From a virus: a stretch of DNA of 33,634 nucleotides. The notes beneath the pieces are model-generated. The model was not told where the DNA came from. It ran no database searches and saw nothing but the letters and a program-made list of their open reading frames with translations. The stretch is taken from the IMG/VR virus record IMGVR_UViG_3300030329_004342, positions 1-33,634 of that record. The stretch is one strand, 5' to 3'. The position numbers and the translations under genes are program-made. How positions within the stretch are numbered: position 1 is the stretch's first letter; every line of letters begins with the position of its first letter. Of this stretch, positions 7,389 to 27,747 are shown in pieces.

Positions 7389-10300
7389 ATGATAAAGGTT
7401 GATTATAACTATGCGTATTTTATTTTGACAAGCAATTTAACAAATATTATCCCAGTAATAAAAATAGATACGGATTTATATTTATCTACTATCGCTATTG
7501 CAATTGGAGATGGCAAAAAAACATACCCTCTTTTAAAAGGTTTTCCGCTTATAGATAAGAAAGTTGATTTCCAGAAAAGCAAAGTCACAAGCGGGGGGTT
7601 GAGTTTTAATGTAGATAACTCGATAATTAGTGGATTTTCTTTTGATGCATTATTAAAAAAGCATACATCGTTTTTAAGTTCTTCCGGTATAAAGCTAACT
7701 GGCTTATCAATTGAATTATTTTATGCAGTGCCTGTTGTTCAAAATGATTATGATCCTGAGATGGAAGCAAGTAACCCTGATGATGCGGGGCTAAAGGCGG
7801 GGAGCTATAAATCATATACATTATTGGAATCGCATTACAAGGGTACTATCCAGAGCATCAAAGTTAAAAATAAAATTTGCTCTATTCAGGCAGTGGATGG
7901 GTTGAATGTAGATCAAAAGGGAGGAATGGTACCATACAACCCTGATTATGCATCAGCATACGGAGTAGATTTAAAAGATGTACCTTTGGGAAAAAATCAA
8001 GAAAGAAAATACTCAATAGAAGATTTAAATATATTTGACCAATATTACATTGAAGACCCTTCAAACCTAATCAACATTAAGTATTGGGATAGTGAGGCAA
8101 GTGATTATTTTCACATTAAGCCTTTTATGGACATAAATTACCTTAAATATGACCTTCCGCAAGAAGTGTTGGCTGTGATTTATGATTTAGGGCTTTACCC
8201 TTCTGATGCTTTAAATGTTGGAGCTCAGCAGTATGTGTGGAATGGGAGATTCGTTGATTTAGGCTATGAAGGATCTGATTTTACCAACCATATCGCAACT
8301 GCAAATGCAGTAGAAGTGCACAGAGTTGTTTACCCTGAATACAATGAGCTGAAGATTGGAAAAGAGCATAATTATTATGAAAGAAGAACATATTTACCAT
8401 TAACACCAACAGCTCACACATCAACTGAGCCAGATTGGGTAATGAGATCCGTATTTGACTTAACAGGAGCAGAAGGGGTTGGACTCTCTACTATTGTACC
8501 GGGAACATTAGCAAATATTAATTCCGGGCAAGGTGCATTAGAGGTGCGGGGTGCTGAGTGCAGAATGTTATATAATAATGCAGGGTCTGGAATGGGAGAC
8601 CCTGCCGTTTGGGAAATGTTTAATATTTCTTTTGGGTTTGTAATGCCTCCGCAAAATTCTGTAAGCGGATGGGACAATTCTTGTTTAATACCTTTAGTAA
8701 AATACCAGATGCATATGAAACAAGTAACTAAAGCTTTTTATACTGAATACGGTGGAACGTTAGAGAATAAGTGGCATCATACCTCTCCGGAAGAATATGG
8801 GGGCATACATATTGGGGGAATATTAAATTCACTACCATATGATGAGGATGTTTTATCAAATCACGGATTAAATCCAGAAAACTTATTTCATATACAAGGA
8901 TCTTCAGATGATGTACAAACCGGACAATTAAAAGCAATTAATTGTGGACAAGATGCAGATACTAATACTACTGGAGCAACAGCTACTGCGAGTTGGAATG
9001 AAGGGAATTACCCAGAAATAAATTGCAATAACGTTATTCAGGATGCAGAGATGGATGATTATTTAACATTGTTTCCAAATAATACAGAAAGGTATAGGAT
9101 ATATGACGAATATACTCAGCCGGGTTCTTTCTTCTTAGAAGAACAGGCAGGGTTTGGGCAAGAAAGTTCAGGGAATAAGGTTTCCAGATTTCAATTGGGG
9201 ATGCTTTATTATAGTGAAAATATTAATTTTCCAGATGGAGAAATCACAAGAGAGGCAATGGGCAAGGGTAGCATTGTTGCAAATTTTGATGCAGATGTTC
9301 ATTATATGGGATATTTGCAAACATTTCCGGCAACGTTGAACGATAAAATATTAGTAGCTGACATTAAAGAGGGGAGAAAAGATGACTCTAGTCTTTACTC
9401 ATCAAGCAATTTACTACCATTTATTATCAAAGATATTGCTAAAAATGAAGCGGGCAGGCAGACAGGTTCAAATATGTTTTGGGGCAATGGATCGGATGCA
9501 GATATACAAAAGATGAAAAAAGTTTTCGAGCTATGGAAATTATTGGGTAGCTCAAATATCCCACCAGTAAATGATTTATACTCAACTATGCTTGGGGACT
9601 ACTCTTACGTTCTATATGAACAGCGACCATATAAAGAAGAAATTGAAAAATTATTAAAATATACTCCCGGCTTTATTGCTTATGAGGGGGATGAAATCAG
9701 ATTTAAATATATATTGCCATTATATGGTATCAATTCGCATCAGGGCAGTTACGGCAATATTAGCAGTACCTATTTTGAAGATTTAGTTGATTATTTTAAA
9801 ATTTCTGCATCTGATGTAATTAGTATGGATTTTGAAAAAACCCCAATTGAAAAAGTTATTAGTAACGTTACTTACGATTATAGATGGAGGCAGGCACAAG
9901 AAACATACACACGGTCTGGCTCCTATGATATAAAAGAGGCTTACGATTCTTCTTTGGAATTAGCCAGCGATAGCTGGGATGATATAAAATTTGACACTAT
10001 TAATGACCATCAAAATAATTATCCACGAATATCATTTCTAGTTACAGAAGGGGAAGGTACTTTAAATTTTAAAGATCTGGAAATGGACAAATTCATATTT
10101 GGAATGAAACCCGGTAATAATGACAGCCAATACCAACCTCCACAATGGAACAATGGACATACTCATCTTTGCGGGTTTACAGTATATATGGATAATGGAG
10201 AAGCACTTACTTCTTTTATATACAATGGAAGATCTGGTAACGATACAGATTATTATAGCCCTTTTCCTTCTTACAACAACCCATTTGGATATTATTTAGA

Positions 10301-16044: not shown

Positions 16045-16605
16045 ATGGCACAATACAAAAACAAGGAGACAGGGATGGATAAAAATAATATGGATGTGCA
16101 TTATAGTATGAAATCTTATGAGTGGGCAACCCCTCAAGCCTTATTTGACAAATTAAATGCTGAGTTTGGTTTTACTCTTGATCCTTGTTGCACAAAAGAG
16201 TCAGCAAAATGCAAAAAATATTATACAAAAGAAGATGATGGTTTAAGCCAAGACTGGACTAATGAAATAGTATTTATGAATCCACCATATGGTAGAGAAA
16301 TTTCAAAATGGATAGAAAAAGCATATAAAGAATCATTGAAAGGTGCAACAGTAGTATGTTTAATCCCAGCTAGAACAGATACTAAATACTATCATAATTA
16401 TATATTTCCATTTGCTGAAATTAGATTTTTGAAAGGCAGGGTTAAGTTTGAAAAAGAAGGATACTATGCTCCAGCACCATTTCCATCTGCAATAGCAATA
16501 TTTAATGAGACTAAAACAGAAAATGTTTCTGAGGAAACTATACTTGCTAACAAAGTTAATAGGTTGAAAGATATGGGATATGAAATAACAAAGGAGAACA
16601 AATAA
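16045..16605 (+). CDS. DNA N6-adenine methyltransferase (phage Dam-like)
   Basis: The product (186 residues from ATG 16045) has the phage adenine methyltransferase pattern: EWATPQALFDKLNAEFGFTL near residues 26-45, LDPCC at 45-49, and the catalytic NPPY at 79-82 followed by G. It should transfer a methyl group from S-adenosylmethionine to adenine N6 in DNA, probably shielding phage DNA from restriction. An alternative start at 16075 has the stronger ribosome binding site (AAGGAG, 6 bases upstream) and would give 176 residues beginning MDKNNMDVHYS; both are possible. The gene lies among early genes and is followed directly by a small gene. Confidence 0.85.
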   Translation: MAQYKNKETGMDKNNMDVHYSMKSYEWATPQALFDKLNAEFGFTLDPCCTKESAKCKKYYTKEDDGLSQDWTNEIVFMNPPYGREISKWIEKAYKESLKGATVVCLIPARTDTKYYHNYIFPFAEIRFLKGRVKFEKEGYYAPAPFPSAIAIFNETKTENVSEETILANKVNRLKDMGYEITKENK

Positions 16606-17709: not shown

Positions 17710-17773
17710 AAGAGGGTATCACCTACCTATAAATTCCGCGATTTTTAGGTTTCCTTTTCCTTGATACCCTCTT
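17710..17773 (+). ncRNA. Nested inverted repeat (12-bp outer stem, 10-bp inner stem)
   Basis: AAGAGGGTATCA (17710-17721) pairs perfectly with TGATACCCTCTT (17762-17773). Inside, ACCTATAAAT (17725-17734) pairs with ATTTTTAGGT (17741-17750) with one mismatch, closing a 6-base loop TCCGCG. A pyrimidine-rich bulge (TTCCTTTTCCT) lies on the 3' side only. It separates the first early block from the HTH and replication genes. It may be a terminator (only a short T-run follows), a regulatory RNA, or a DNA cruciform near the origin. Confidence 0.5.
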
Positions 17774-18054: not shown

Positions 18055-18895
18055 TTTACACCGGAAGGTTTTAGAAAATCCGGTAATAAAACCAAAGGGA
18101 AGGTTCTCAGATTTTGAGGCTTGGGTATTTTTACTGCTTAAAGCTAGTCACGAAGAAAACAAGGTGCGAGTTGGGACATACATATATAAAGTGAAATCTG
18201 GAGATATAATAACATCACAGAAAAAACTTTGTTTGAGGTTCAAATGGGGCAACTCAAAGCTGAGAAATTTTTTAAAAATGCTAGAATCTGATGAAATGAT
18301 AGCAGTTGAAACAAATTGCAAATTAACACGGATAACTATATTGAATTTCGACCAGTTGCAGAATAAACAAATCGCAAATAAATCAAAAACAAACCAAAAA
18401 CAAATCGCTAATAAATCAGAAACAAATACATATAATAATGATAATAAACTTAATAATGTAAATAAAAGAAAAGACAAATTCTCCAGAGAGGTTGTGGCTC
18501 ATTGTGTGAAAAGCAACTATCTGGATAAAGAGGGACAAGTTTATTTTCCAGAATTAGTTGAGGAATTTATTGGATATTGGACTGAGATGAATCGAACTAA
18601 AACACGGATGCGATTTGAGATGGAGAAAACTTTTGAGATAAGCAGAAGGATCTCTACTTGGATAGCAAGGCATAAAGATTGGGGAAAAACCAATATAAAG
18701 AACAAAGAGATCAACGAATTTAAATTAGATTCTACGGGCAATGCTTATATTGGTTATTGCTCAAAGTGTAATAAATCGGATTTCTATGATAAATATAATA
18801 TCAGAAATGTTGATAGCAGTTGTTGTAATGTTAAAATAAACCCAAAAAGGAGAAAAGATGAAAAAAGTAATAAATCAAGTTATGCAAACCAATGA
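18035..18895 (+). CDS. Replication initiator / replisome organiser (DnaD-like N-terminal winged helix)
   Basis: I use ATG 18035, preceded by GAGGGGAGA at proper spacing; ATG 18020 is upstream without a site. The product has 286 residues. The N-terminal 110 residues (ALGWISLHRKVLENPVIKPK; FEAWVFLLLKASHEENKV; SGDIITSQKKLCLRFKWG) match the winged-helix start of phage replication initiators. A low-complexity linker with a duplicated IANKS.TN unit follows (about 111-135). Next comes a helical module (FIGYWTEMNRTKTRMRFEME then STWIARHKDW) common in such initiators. The C-terminal part has Cys pairs (CSKC, CC) that may bind zinc. It probably binds the origin in its own gene and loads the host helicase. 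Confidence 0.75.
   Translation: MALGWISLHRKVLENPVIKPKGRFSDFEAWVFLLLKASHEENKVRVGTYIYKVKSGDIITSQKKLCLRFKWGNSKLRNFLKMLESDEMIAVETNCKLTRITILNFDQLQNKQIANKSKTNQKQIANKSETNTYNNDNKLNNVNKRKDKFSREVVAHCVKSNYLDKEGQVYFPELVEEFIGYWTEMNRTKTRMRFEMEKTFEISRRISTWIARHKDWGKTNIKNKEINEFKLDSTGNAYIGYCSKCNKSDFYDKYNIRNVDSSCCNVKINPKRRKDEKSNKSSYANQ
18365..18475 (+). other. Candidate replication origin: two iteron-like repeats plus AT-rich segment inside the initiator gene
   Basis: A 29-base direct repeat occurs at 18365-18393 and 18398-18426, starting AAACAAATCGC in both, with two mismatches and a period of 33 bases. Immediately after come about 49 bases of almost pure A+T (18427-18475; TATAATAATGATAATAAAC is part), the kind of segment that melts easily. 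Iterons inside the initiator gene next to an AT-rich segment is the lambda O arrangement. Both repeats are also coding (linker IANKS.TN), so a purely protein-level duplication is the alternative. Confidence 0.5.
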
Positions 18896-19583
18896 TTATT
18901 CTTTATTTAAAAAGATGAAAGGCAATAGGGATGTGAATATTGCACACCATAAAAGATTAAAAAAATCAATAGAGGAAGAATCGCTTCAAGTTCCAATAAT
19001 AGTAAATGAAAAAATGGAAATATGCGATGGGCAAACTCGCTTTGGAGTGTGGAAAGAATTAAAATTACCAGTAATATATATAGTAGTCAAAGGATATAGT
19101 TTACCACAAGTCCAGAGGCTTAACAGCAATATTAAAAATTGGACATTAAAAGATTTTGCTGATTGCTACTGTGATTTAAATAATAAAAATTACCTACAAT
19201 ATAGAGATTTTGTGGGAAAATATGGATTGGGGGGCTATGAATCAATCGCAATGCTTTCTGGGACACCTAATGGCTCTGGGAAAAATTTCGAGAGGTTCAA
19301 GACCGGGCAGTTTAAAGTTAAATCATATAGAAAAGCTTGTAAAGAAGCAGAAAAAGTGATTCAGATGGAGCAATATTACGAAGGATATAAAAGGAGATCT
19401 TTTGTTTTTGCTTTGTTGCAATTAATAAATAATAAGGAGTTTGATTTTGCTCAATTACTCCAAAAATTATCTTACCAATCAACAAAATTAGTGCATTGTA
19501 CAAATAAGATCCAATATTTAAGCTTATTGCAAGATATTTATAACTACAATTCCAAAAAGAAAGTTAATTTAATGTATAGCTAA
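18858..19583 (+). CDS. ParB/Srx-like domain protein
   Basis: A 241-residue product; ATG 18858 overlaps the initiator gene by 38 bases but has a strong site (AAAAAGGAGAAAAG). Residues 25-78 show the ParB/sulfiredoxin-like pattern: helix HHKRLKKSIEEESLQVPIIV, then the loop CDGQTR at 56-61, then RFGVWKELKLPVIYIVV. The rest is helical and basic. Phage ParB-like proteins of this kind act as nucleases or nucleotide-dependent DNA-binding proteins; the catalytic type cannot be decided here. It is the first of two ParB-type genes in this genome (the other is at 21698). Confidence 0.65.
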   Translation: MKKVINQVMQTNDYSLFKKMKGNRDVNIAHHKRLKKSIEEESLQVPIIVNEKMEICDGQTRFGVWKELKLPVIYIVVKGYSLPQVQRLNSNIKNWTLKDFADCYCDLNNKNYLQYRDFVGKYGLGGYESIAMLSGTPNGSGKNFERFKTGQFKVKSYRKACKEAEKVIQMEQYYEGYKRRSFVFALLQLINNKEFDFAQLLQKLSYQSTKLVHCTNKIQYLSLLQDIYNYNSKKKVNLMYS

Positions 19584-19593
19584 GGGGGAGAAA

Positions 19594-19947
19594 ATGAGAG
19601 TAACAAGGATATATAATATACAAAAAAGCAATGTAAGATGTTTTTTTGATCTGGAAATAATAGAAGGTGCTGTAATAAAGGGTTTTAAATTAGTATCTGG
19701 TAGCAAGGGCGACTTTATTTCCGGACCTTCTTATAAAAAAGAAGATGGGGAGTACCAGAACATCGCTTGGATAAGAGAACCGGCAAGCTCTAATATACTC
19801 GAAACCATAAAAGCACTATATGATAAAAATAGAGAAGGTGCTTACAATGTTGTAAATATGGATAAAGGTAGAGCCACTTATTTGAACGAGGTGGGGACAA
19901 AAAATGAGACCAAGCCAGAAGATGCATTTGGGGATCTCCCGTTCTAA
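19594..19947 (+). CDS. SpoVG-like nucleic-acid-binding protein with SSB-type acidic tip
   Basis: The 117-residue product matches the SpoVG fold pattern over residues 1-85: V-T-R-I-Y-N-I, a strand with VRCFFDLEIIEGAVIKGFKL, then SGSKGDFISGPSYKKEDGEY and QNIAWI. SpoVG proteins bind DNA and RNA. The last eight residues, DAFGDLPF, look like the acidic C-terminal tip of bacterial single-strand binding proteins (usually DDDIPF), which recruits replication partners. I infer that it serves as the phage's ssDNA-binding protein. It overlaps the next gene by one base. Confidence 0.65.
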   Translation: MRVTRIYNIQKSNVRCFFDLEIIEGAVIKGFKLVSGSKGDFISGPSYKKEDGEYQNIAWIREPASSNILETIKALYDKNREGAYNVVNMDKGRATYLNEVGTKNETKPEDAFGDLPF

Positions 19948-20789: not shown

Positions 20790-20924
20790 ATGAAAACGAA
20801 AAAACCTCTCACACCCGGAGCATTAATTTTTACATTCTTTATTATTATATTTGGTTGGACGACATTTTTATTAGTAAACTACGGGTATTTAAAACTTGTA
20901 TTAAAACTAATAAATATTGACTGA
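20790..20924 (+). CDS. Micro-membrane protein, 44 residues
   Basis: ATG 20790 comes two bases after the preceding stop and follows AAAGGATAA. The peptide has a basic start (MKTKKPLTPG) and one long hydrophobic segment (ALIFTFFIIIFGWTTFLLV), then a polar-basic tail, so it should have its N-terminus inside. Its end overlaps the rusA-like start by 8 bases (TTGACTGA). Unknown role; a third tiny membrane protein among early genes. Confidence 0.55.
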   Translation: MKTKKPLTPGALIFTFFIIIFGWTTFLLVNYGYLKLVLKLINID

Positions 20925-21276
20925 CCTTATAATTATACCCACCACAATATATTCCAGAAACAAGATAGATAAACTCCACTGGAGTAAAAAAACCAAATTG
21001 CGAAATGATTATCAGTATTTAATACGATCGCAAATGCAAATTGAAAAAATTGAGAAAGTTTCTGACCATACAAAGTGTTCGCTGTCTATCCAGATATATA
21101 GAAAAAGGATCATAGATTGGGATAATCTGGTTGGAGGTTGTAAACAGCTAATTGATGCTTTGTGCAAAGAATTGTATATTTATGATGATTCTGACAAATA
21201 TTTAGGAATACCGGAAATAGAGCAACACAAATCTGCTGGCAATGAGTTTGTTTTGATCAGGAGGGAGTTGATTTGA
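20917..21276 (+). CDS. rusA: RusA-type Holliday junction resolvase
   Basis: The 119-residue product has the RusA core: RIIDWDNLVGGCKQLIDALC with acidic pair D67 and D69, followed by YDDSDKY with D90 and D91, matching the catalytic aspartates D70, D72 and D91 of E. coli RusA. It should cut branched DNA during phage recombination or before packaging. No ATG exists before residue 40, so the start is taken as TTG 20917, overlapping the upstream TGA; there is no clear ribosome binding site, so expression probably depends on coupling. Its stop lies within the left arm of the 14-bp inverted repeat. Confidence 0.85.
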   Translation: MTDLIIIPTTIYSRNKIDKLHWSKKTKLRNDYQYLIRSQMQIEKIEKVSDHTKCSLSIQIYRKRIIDWDNLVGGCKQLIDALCKELYIYDDSDKYLGIPEIEQHKSAGNEFVLIRRELI

Positions 21277-21411
21277 GAGTGTATATAAAAAACAGAAAAA
21301 AGTCCAAGACACGATGCTAAATATATCACACATTAGTTGGCTGGAAGTTGCAACTCAACGAGGGGATAATAAAGCCTTGAAAAACAAAAAACTCTACATA
21401 TACACTCTCAA
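21273..21411 (+). repeat. 139-nt element with perfect 14-bp terminal inverted repeats between rusA and HNH genes
   Basis: TTGAGAGTGTATAT (21273-21286) is the exact reverse complement of ATATACACTCTCAA (21398-21411). The left arm contains the TGA of the rusA-like gene and the right arm ends at the A of the HNH gene's ATG. An ideal ribosome binding site, AGGAGG (21259-21264), lies 8 bases before the left arm, while the HNH start has none nearby. If the element were absent, AGGAGG would sit correctly before an ATGA stop/start overlap. It is either an inserted element or an RNA stem that brings the site to the start codon. Confidence 0.65.
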
Positions 21412-21424
21412 TGACTGGGCTTAA
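21314..21424 (+). CDS. Possible 36-residue ORF inside the inverted-repeat element
   Basis: An ATG at 21314 opens a frame (MLNISHISWLEVATQRGDNK and on, ending LNDWA) that closes at the TAA at 21422-21424, inside the HNH gene. There is no ribosome binding site. The segment may be an alternative explanation for the gap between rusA and HNH, but the 14-bp inverted repeat makes a structural role more likely. Low confidence. Confidence 0.2.
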   Translation: MLNISHISWLEVATQRGDNKALKNKKLYIYTLNDWA

Positions 21425-21713
21425 ATTTTTAAACCATATCAGGAAACAAACATATTGCTCTATATGTATGAGAGATGGACCAGTAGAACCGCACCATTTA
21501 AAAGCAGTAGGAATGGGAAGAAATAGAAAAAAAGAAATGGCGAGGCATTATACTTGCATACCGGTGTGCCGACCTTGCCATATGGACTACCATAATATAG
21601 GCATCAAAGATTTTGAGAAGAAGCACGGGATTTCAGTTTATAAGGTAAACCATAGATATTTAGTTGCATACATATTAGCTAATTTGGAGGGTAGAGAATG
21701 GATGGAAATTTAA
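21411..21713 (+). CDS. HNH-like zinc-binding nuclease, 100 residues
   Basis: The product shows CSIC (residues 16-19), EPHHL (27-30) with two His, then CIPVCRPCHMDYHNIG with C53, C56, H57 and H61. A CxxC...HH...CxxCH..H arrangement is typical of small phage HNH-type or recombination nucleases (DUF968-like in layout). ATG 21411 has no ribosome binding site nearby; the nearest, AGGAGG at 21259, is across the inverted-repeat element. It overlaps the ParB-like gene by 16 bases. Following a RusA-type resolvase, it likely acts in recombination or DNA processing. Confidence 0.68.
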   Translation: MTGLKFLNHIRKQTYCSICMRDGPVEPHHLKAVGMGRNRKKEMARHYTCIPVCRPCHMDYHNIGIKDFEKKHGISVYKVNHRYLVAYILANLEGREWMEI

Positions 21714-22318
21714 AAATAGTAAATAGAGATATTGATGATTTAATACCAGCAGAATATAACCCAAGACAATTAAGCAAAGATCAATATAGACAATTACGAG
21801 ATAGCATTAAAAGATTTGGGCTCGTAGATCCAATTATAGTAAATATAAATAAAGATAGAGAAGATATAATAATTGGAGGACATCAGAGAGTAAAAGTTGC
21901 AAGATCTGTTGGATTGGACGAAGTGCCCTGCGTTGAAATAGATTTAACCTATGAAAAAGAAAGAGAATTAAATATCAGGCTCAACAAAAATACGGGAGAG
22001 TTTGACTATGATGTTTTGGCTAATATGTTTGACATAGATGAATTGATTGATTGGGGGTTTAGTGAAACAGATTTTAATAAAATTTTAAGCATTGATCCAG
22101 ATGAAGATGAGCCAGAACTTGAAATATCTCCAGAGCTTTTTGAGCGACACGATTATGTTTTATTTTATTTTGATAATGAGTTTGATTGGAATGTAATTTC
22201 TGAACTGTTCGATTTAAATGCAGTCTATGATCCAAATAAAAGCAAAAAAATGAGGACTAAAGGATTGGGACGAGTAATAAAAGGGAAAAAATTATTGGAA
22301 TTATTAGATGACGAATAA
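21698..22318 (+). CDS. ParB-like nuclease-domain protein
   Basis: The 206-residue product has a standard ParB N-terminal domain: IPAEYNPRQLSKDQYRQLRD (about 16-35), GLVDPIIVNI, then the IIGGHQR box at 58-64 and ARSVGLDEVPCVEI. Next is an acidic central region (IDPDEDEPELEISPELFERH) and a C-terminal domain (YVLFYFDNEFDWNVISELFD) I recall as recurrent in similar phage proteins. The start ATG 21698 follows GGAGGGTAGAG. It overlaps the glycosyltransferase-like gene by 11 bases, and the two lead into the terminase genes. It could nick or mark DNA for packaging or act with the next gene in DNA modification. Confidence 0.78.
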   Translation: MDGNLKIVNRDIDDLIPAEYNPRQLSKDQYRQLRDSIKRFGLVDPIIVNINKDREDIIIGGHQRVKVARSVGLDEVPCVEIDLTYEKERELNIRLNKNTGEFDYDVLANMFDIDELIDWGFSETDFNKILSIDPDEDEPELEISPELFERHDYVLFYFDNEFDWNVISELFDLNAVYDPNKSKKMRTKGLGRVIKGKKLLELLDDE

Positions 22319-23057
22319 ATTACACATAGCTATTAGATCTTATAAAAGGGCAGGAGATGTAAAGACGATTGATATATTTAAAGATGCAACTATCTGGATT
22401 CCAGAGTCACAGAAAGAAGATTATGAAAAGCATTATACAAATATTCAATGTATCCCAGATAATGAAGATGGAAATAGCTCAAGGAAGCTAAACAGCATAT
22501 TAAATAGATGCGAGGCAGATTGGATTTTGATTTTAGATGATGATATAACTGACATTTGCTATTGGGAGAAGGGGCAGAAATACTCTGTTAGCCCTGATGA
22601 AATAGAAGATATTATAAAACATTATTTTCAAGTTGCGGAAGATTTAGGGGTAAAGCTTTGGGGGATTAATGTTAATGGAGACCCAATGAGCTACAGGGTT
22701 TACTCGCCTATTTCTTTTTTATCTCCAGTATTAGCTCCATTTAGCGGACACTTAAAAACCGATTTAAGATATGACGAGGAGATACCATATAAAGAAGATT
22801 ATGATTTCTGGCTACAAAATATAAGAAAGTATCGCAAGACATTAAGAGTAAACAAGTACCATTATATGCATTATCACGGATCAGGATTAAAAGGGGGGCT
22901 AGTAGGGAAAAGAACAATGGAGAAGGAGAAAAAGTCTGTTGATAATATGATTAAAAAATGGGGATCGCAAGTTTTTAAAGGGACAAAGGCAAGCGGGTTG
23001 AATAAGCAAGAAAACATTTTAAATTCACAAGTTAAGGTGCCGATTAAAGGATTATAA
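22308..23057 (+). CDS. GT-A-type glycosyltransferase, possibly DNA-modifying (TET-associated type)
   Basis: A 249-residue protein with the order expected of a nucleotide-sugar GT-A enzyme: start HIAIRSYKRAGDVKT, strand ATIWIPESQ, then EADWILILDDDITDICYW with the metal-binding DDD at 77-79, and a second acidic motif YKEDYDFW at 161-168, then HYMHYH at 185-190. This layout resembles the phage glycosyltransferases predicted by Iyer and colleagues to sugar-coat modified bases in DNA, which also occur beside ParB genes. No TET/JBP oxygenase or base hydroxymethylase gene is visible, so the acceptor is unknown (DNA, protein or host glycan). It is coupled to ParB upstream and terminase downstream (TAATG). 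Confidence 0.6.
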   Translation: MTNKLHIAIRSYKRAGDVKTIDIFKDATIWIPESQKEDYEKHYTNIQCIPDNEDGNSSRKLNSILNRCEADWILILDDDITDICYWEKGQKYSVSPDEIEDIIKHYFQVAEDLGVKLWGINVNGDPMSYRVYSPISFLSPVLAPFSGHLKTDLRYDEEIPYKEDYDFWLQNIRKYRKTLRVNKYHYMHYHGSGLKGGLVGKRTMEKEKKSVDNMIKKWGSQVFKGTKASGLNKQENILNSQVKVPIKGL

Positions 23058-27180: not shown

Positions 27181-27485
27181 TGGATCCACTTCAAATATTA
27201 TCAGAGTTTGGAGTGCCAATTAGTGTTGCTATGGCATTTGGTTTTTTTATTTGGAAGCAAAATAAATTCATACAAGACGAGCTAATGAAAGAGCTAGACG
27301 AAGATCAAAAAGAATTACGAGCTCAGTTTGAAAGACTTGAAGGGATAATAATTGGCTTAATCAATGCACAGAAAAAACATACTATTGACCTAAGAGGTTT
27401 AAACAAATCATATGAATCAATGGCTTATATAATACAAAAGCTATCAGGGAATGGATTAAAGGACAAGTTTAATGGGCACAAGTGA
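27180..27485 (+). CDS. Holin-like membrane protein with coiled coil, 101 residues
   Basis: The product has one N-terminal membrane segment (FGVPISVAMAFGFFIWKQNK, about residues 10-29) then a long charged helix (ELMKELDEDQKELRAQFERL and on), as in BhlA/UviB- and XhlA-type holin-like proteins. It lies in the head module rather than beside the endolysin, so a role as a structural or host-membrane protein is also possible. It is coupled by TAATG and overlaps the next gene by 14 bases. Confidence 0.5.
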   Translation: MDPLQILSEFGVPISVAMAFGFFIWKQNKFIQDELMKELDEDQKELRAQFERLEGIIIGLINAQKKHTIDLRGLNKSYESMAYIIQKLSGNGLKDKFNGHK

Positions 27486-27747
27486 GGTACTGATTTTAAA
27501 TTTTATTGCTTTTGTAGTTATGCCCATAACAGTTGAAACAACAATTTGCCTTAATCCCTCTCCAATCCATAGAGGAGCAGTTTGCAATTGGGAAGAAAAA
27601 AATTGGGAAGTAAAATTTGATATTGAAACTATGGAATACTATTACGAGTTAAAGCCTACGGATCAATCAGATAACTTTATAGAGAAAAAAATGAGAAAGA
27701 GGTTTTTAGACAATGGCAAAAGAGTTCAATATATTAAAAAAAATTGA
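27472..27747 (+). CDS. Protein with N-terminal hydrophobic segment, 91 residues
   Basis: ATG 27472 overlaps the upstream gene by 14 bases. A hydrophobic stretch (VLILNFIAFVVMPITVETTI, residues 6-25) could be a signal or membrane anchor. It is followed by a Cys-containing, aromatic, charged domain (CNWEEKNWEVKFDIETMEYY). The rest is basic. It overlaps the next gene by 35 bases. It could belong to lysis or envelope interaction, but no family is recognised. Confidence 0.5.
   Translation: MGTSEVLILNFIAFVVMPITVETTICLNPSPIHRGAVCNWEEKNWEVKFDIETMEYYYELKPTDQSDNFIEKKMRKRFLDNGKRVQYIKKN

Follow-up and report, generated by a model that had tools for sequence, protein, structure and literature searches.

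A candidate structured RNA with an invariant two-loop core at the rusA-HNH junction of an uncultured phage

The stretch of viral DNA analysed here, called the window throughout, is the 33,634-nucleotide IMG/VR record IMGVR_UViG_3300030329_004342. On its plus strand, a gene for a rusA-like Holliday junction resolvase (20917–21276; phrog_34, E 6e-8; TTG start uncertain) is followed by an HNH gene of the DUF968/HNHc_6 type (21411–21713), which scores above the cut-off for PF06147 and PF16784 and is 42–46% identical to the genes at the same position in relatives. The junction between the two is bounded by an inverted repeat on the same strand, whose left arm TTGAGAGTGTATAT (21273–21286) and right arm ATATACACTCTCAA (21398–21411) are 14 nt each and 100% complementary (14/14) across a spacer of 111 nt. 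The left arm holds the rusA TGA (21274–21276), the last base of the right arm is the A of the HNH ATG (21411), and an AGGAGG (21259–21264, plus strand), proposed from its sequence as the HNH ribosome binding site, ends 8 nt 5′ of the left arm. This layout confirms a sequence-only reading of the locus, as does the effect of deleting 21273–21410, which gives GAG TTG ATA TGA, so that rusA ends E L I stop and overlaps HNH by ATGA. No other perfect inverted repeat in the whole window reaches 14 bp with a spacer of 20–160 nt, and such a repeat occurs in 6 of 300 dinucleotide shuffles of the window, or about 2%. A perfect 12-bp inverted repeat, AAGAGGGTATCA / TGATACCCTCTT with its arms 40 nt apart, lies elsewhere at 17710–17773.

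Scans for relatives with the HNH and RusA proteins returned none or weak ones, and TerL proved to be the useful handle. The nearest relatives found are five IMG/VR contigs with a TerL 64–65% identical to that of the window, all of which keep the order rusA, HNH, terS, terL and lack the insert: in 5/5 rusA stops and HNH starts within an overlapping TAATG, without a gap between them. It follows that 138 nt are either extra in the window lineage or were lost in all the others, and the comparison supports the former, that these nucleotides are probably an extra segment in the window phage, in keeping with the insertion suggested by the sequence-only reading. A covariance model of the core of the element, introduced below, found no copy in the searched parts of the five contigs. 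The HNH proteins of the five relatives begin within one residue of the window HNH start, which supports the position assigned to that start. HNH adjoins terS directly in these relatives (L003–L007); in the window the two are separated (21698–23057) by a ParB-like gene and one resembling TAGT/glucosyltransferases (PF20691, phrog_842), the latter hinting at modified phage DNA. Upstream of rusA lie a second ParB-like gene (18858–19583) and a DNA methyltransferase gene (16045–16605).

A second copy of the element was sought with 21 nt from inside the repeat rather than with the arms. It was found in contig L008, where TGAAAGTGC...GCACTTTCA surround nearly the same core; these arms differ in sequence from those of the window and still pair, and the left one also contains the stop codon of the upstream gene. 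A looser pattern recovered the element from 14 IMG/VR contigs, including L008, together with 5 chance coding matches. Counting the window, there are 15 records, comprising about 10 distinct sequences: the window; L008; L010/L011; L012/L016; L013; L015/L019/L023; L017/L027; L018; L020; and L021. The strings UGGCUGGAAGUUGCA, GGGGAUAAUAAAGCC and AAAAACUC are identical in ten of the ten aligned sequences. The core covariance model, R1, scores the 15 members at 72–87 bits (81.6 bits for the window copy, 21273–21411, plus strand) and nothing else above 21 bits, with exactly one strong copy in each of the 15 records. When the three-block pattern was relaxed, IMG/VR yielded 8 further contigs, all chance matches by inspection, so the core appears truly invariant. 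An exact-arm search found no further copies, as expected given the variable arms; a half-arm at 141–154 of the window was rejected as another copy, as it lies inside a tail gene and lacks the core. A coding reading of the core was also discarded, the reading frame varying between copies.

Beyond IMG/VR, two patterns run against 84,980 prokaryote genomes found no copy, and blastn at E up to 10, with the element against cultured phages and with an L013 excerpt against plasmids, gave short chance matches without the core. No family in Rfam 15 reached its gathering score, the weak matches (E up to 5–10) being at chance level; astro_FSE (20.5 bits against a cut-off of 70) and MCS4 (17.5 bits against 56) were rejected as identities on this ground. 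Searching the literature with core strings returned unrelated papers only. It is thus well supported that the element represents an RNA family absent from Rfam 15 and present in about 15 uncultured phage contigs. The conserved inner core that makes it one was missed by the sequence-only reading; the search of phage genomes proposed there succeeds in 14 other IMG/VR contigs by way of this inner sequence, and in no cultured phage.

The core of the window copy comprises two hairpins and a tail, all on the plus strand. Hairpin P3 (21335–21355) reads AGTTG-GCTGGAAGTTG-CAACT, with two pairs changed on both sides among members, and hairpin P4 (21359–21379) reads CGAGG-GGATAATAAAG-CCTTG; the single-stranded tail AAAAACTC (21387–21394) lies between P4 and the terminal stem, P1, which the arms of the inverted repeat form. 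The family consensus is NNNUG-GCUGGAAGUUG-CANNN for P3 and NNNGG-GGAUAAUAAAG-CCNNN for P4, and both 11-nt loops and the tail AAAAACUC are strictly invariant. The P3 loop and the tail could pair as a pseudoknot (AGUU with AACU), for which no covariation is possible because both sides are invariant, while a further hairpin, P2, is plausible in several members and not significant.

P1 behaves in the opposite way to the core, its sequence varying between lineages while the pairing is kept. The 5′ arm, in each case with its complement, is TTGAGAGTGTATAT in the window, ATGAAAGTGC in L008, TATAGATGCAGG in L012 and L017, TAAGAGTAGC in L013, TTAAGAGTAGT in L020, TGTGTAGG in L015 and AGCTGTAGG in L018. 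The outer ends share no bases, the stem varies in length, and one arm pair in L020 is G-U. When flanks were shuffled 400 times, P1 was equalled by 0–1 shuffles in the window (0/400), L008, L012, L013, L017, L020 and L027, by 13/400 in L018 and by 33/400 in L015; the same test gives it no significance in L021, and no such stem is evident in L010/L011. The last two contigs have the invariant core with no clear P1 at the usual distance, and may carry a longer or rearranged closing stem. In an alignment of excerpts from 8 members, chosen by hand around P1 and with the flank shuffles as independent control, 88% of cells are paired (66% when shuffled), 11 pairs have changes on both sides, and covariation scores 0.627, compared with 0.170 for shuffled and no more than 0.097 for slid controls; the family as a whole numbers only about 10 distinct sequences. 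The observed score and the proportion of paired cells are each reached by 0/500 shuffles, and P1 taken by itself is 100% paired, 7 of its 8 pairs being compensated.

Covariation of the arms and empty sites in relatives, the checks put forward in the sequence-only reading, have both come out positive and are decisive. A chance inverted repeat in an unremarkable gap would fit the frequency of such repeats among shuffled windows and the total folding energy of the window copy, which is ordinary (z -1.08), but it would leave the invariant core in 15 records and the compensatory changes in P1, P3 and P4 without explanation, and can be set aside as exceedingly improbable. The segment is almost certainly one copy of a conserved structured RNA.

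Two other proposals treat the element as mobile or self-removing. The sequence-only reading suggested a MITE-like element, and the inverted-repeat ends, the insertion relative to relatives and the differing position between phages would suit this or another remnant of a DNA transposon bounded by terminal inverted repeats. However, arms that differ between copies around an invariant inside are the reverse of what a transposon presents; there is one copy per record, no target duplication was found at the element ends in the window, and the G-U arm pair of L020 and the compensations in P3 and P4 are RNA-like, so that a transposon is very improbable. A self-cleaving or self-splicing ribozyme that excises itself from the mRNA, so that rusA and HNH meet as they do at the empty site, is also unlikely, though less so. 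Exact excision would give back the ATGA overlap and a rusA ending ELI, and the small size, invariant loops, terminal stem and shifting positions are in character. Yet no Rfam ribozyme or intron model matches, group I, group II and small ribozymes included; the outer ends of P1, without shared bases and with a stem of varying length, are unlike conserved splice sites; and excision rescues no open frame. The intron-like element of the sequence-only reading has no support either, there being no Rfam match and no shared splice-site-like flanks.

The element sits at several different gene junctions between lineages and, in the members read, shares its strand with the genes beside it. In the window it has rusA upstream and HNH downstream; in L008 it has a homologue of the window gene at 27472–27747 upstream and of that at 19594–19947 downstream, and as neither window homologue has an element beside it, the place of the element is not fixed. 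A small helix-turn-helix-like gene lies upstream in L013 and L010/L011, and a gene of 71–75 aa in the L012-type contigs. The upstream stop codon begins at base one or two of P1 in the window, L008 and L013, and P1 starts several nt past it in the L012-type phages. Certain genes recur around the element. The window (27472–27747) and three RNA-carrying contigs (L008 13100–13348, L013 849–1184, L020 1273–1632) have in common a small conserved protein that matches no PHROG, at varying distance from the RNA. An endonuclease VII/HNH-type gene, at 9262–9747 in L012 and with orthologues in L015, L017, L018 and L021, precedes the RNA by several hundred nt in this lineage; a NinG-like gene is near the element in L008, and HNH follows directly in the window, a proximity to nucleases that is possibly coincidence.

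Riboswitch aptamers usually have this layout, an invariant core closed by a variable P1. A riboswitch-like cis-regulator would bind a ligand or protein at the P3/P4 core, stabilising P1 and controlling translation of the next gene, and in the window P1 formation would switch HNH on, since it links the AGGAGG with the AUG. Besides the layout itself, AGGAG and a start codon lie closely 3′ of P1 in L012, L013, L015, L017, L018 and L021. Against it, in L008, L010/L011 and L020 P1 is not directly followed by a gene start, the downstream genes belong to no constant class between lineages (HNH; nuclease-like or unknown; SSB-like or unknown), and P1 was found to have no alternative pairing partner in a binding site. 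We consider such a regulator possible but rather unlikely, and are evenly divided on whether the core is mainly an RNA module, protein-bound or trans-acting, and not a switch for the next gene.

How HNH is translated in the window is a separate matter. The local anti-Shine-Dalgarno duplex at HNH is the worst of the 44 starts scored (+2.7 kcal/mol), in line with the earlier remark that this gene has no site of its own. AGGAGG lies 146 nt from the HNH AUG in linear RNA and 8 nt from it once the ends of P1 are joined. Folded in silico in its native context, P1 has a pair probability near 1, falling to 0.53 for the outermost pair, and AGGAGG is mostly unpaired; the outermost pair occupies the first base of the AUG, which might impede initiation. 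On this modelling P1 would link the HNH AUG with the AGGAGG at the rusA end, at a spacing of about 8 nt, and we lean slightly towards HNH being translated from such a split site in the window phage. A ribosome terminating at the rusA stop would cover the left arm and open P1; speculatively, this might confine HNH initiation to the intervals between rusA ribosomes. The structural bypass proposed in the sequence-only reading is therefore plausible in silico in its geometry and energetics, and well grounded though short of proof, but its reach is local. Since in most other members the next gene has its own AGGAG, relocation of the binding site would be a consequence peculiar to the window phage and not a trait of the family.

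Taken as a whole, the segment is probably a member of a phage structured-RNA family lodged in an operon, in which the core acts as a module and HNH translation proceeds here from a split site. The segment 21273–21411 would be transcribed within the operon, and P1 would close a domain made up of P3 and P4, with their invariant 11-nt loops and the invariant AAAAACUC that follows. Loops and tail may form the working part, a binding or catalytic surface, which P1 would isolate, making the core a compact RNA module inside a polycistronic mRNA. P1 presumably folds the element out of the way, and this would be why it is tolerated between genes. More than 30 positions are invariant, with one copy per genome, while neighbouring genes diverge, and this constancy implies a specific partner or activity. 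Tentatively, we entertain the larger possibility that this is a phage RNA of a new class, whether a ribozyme, an aptamer or a non-coding RNA that binds protein, single-copy and junction-changing, with an invariant two-loop core and a closing stem that joins binding site to start codon and so keeps the operon working. The junction also offers a natural test of how far a folded domain can split a binding site from its start codon.

Several known systems invite comparison. The family resembles the candidate structured RNAs that comparative genomics has drawn from metagenomes and phages (e.g. PMC2864571, PMC8040213) in combining a covarying structure with an invariant core, and differs from them in having no match in Rfam 15 and in occurring in uncultured phage contigs only. 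As in a known phage HNH gene with a structured leader, the RNA immediately precedes an HNH gene; in that leader a hairpin hides the binding site, whereas the stem in the window would move a remote site nearer, and the window HNH is of the DUF968/HNHc_6 type, for which a homing-enzyme role should not be assumed from the comparison. The nearest parallel at the junction is with the split translation-initiation regions of T4 genes 38 and 25, where structure between the Shine-Dalgarno sequence and the AUG at a phage gene junction cuts the spacing from 22 to 5 nt and from 27 to 11 nt (PMC3014915). The HNH start shares these features with such a region: it has no well-spaced Shine-Dalgarno sequence of its own, a strong one lies too far upstream, and a structure predicted in silico would restore a working spacing. 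Unlike the 22 and 27 nt of T4, however, the 146 nt here would be folded away, in silico, by a member of an invariant-core RNA family that is not tied to one gene.
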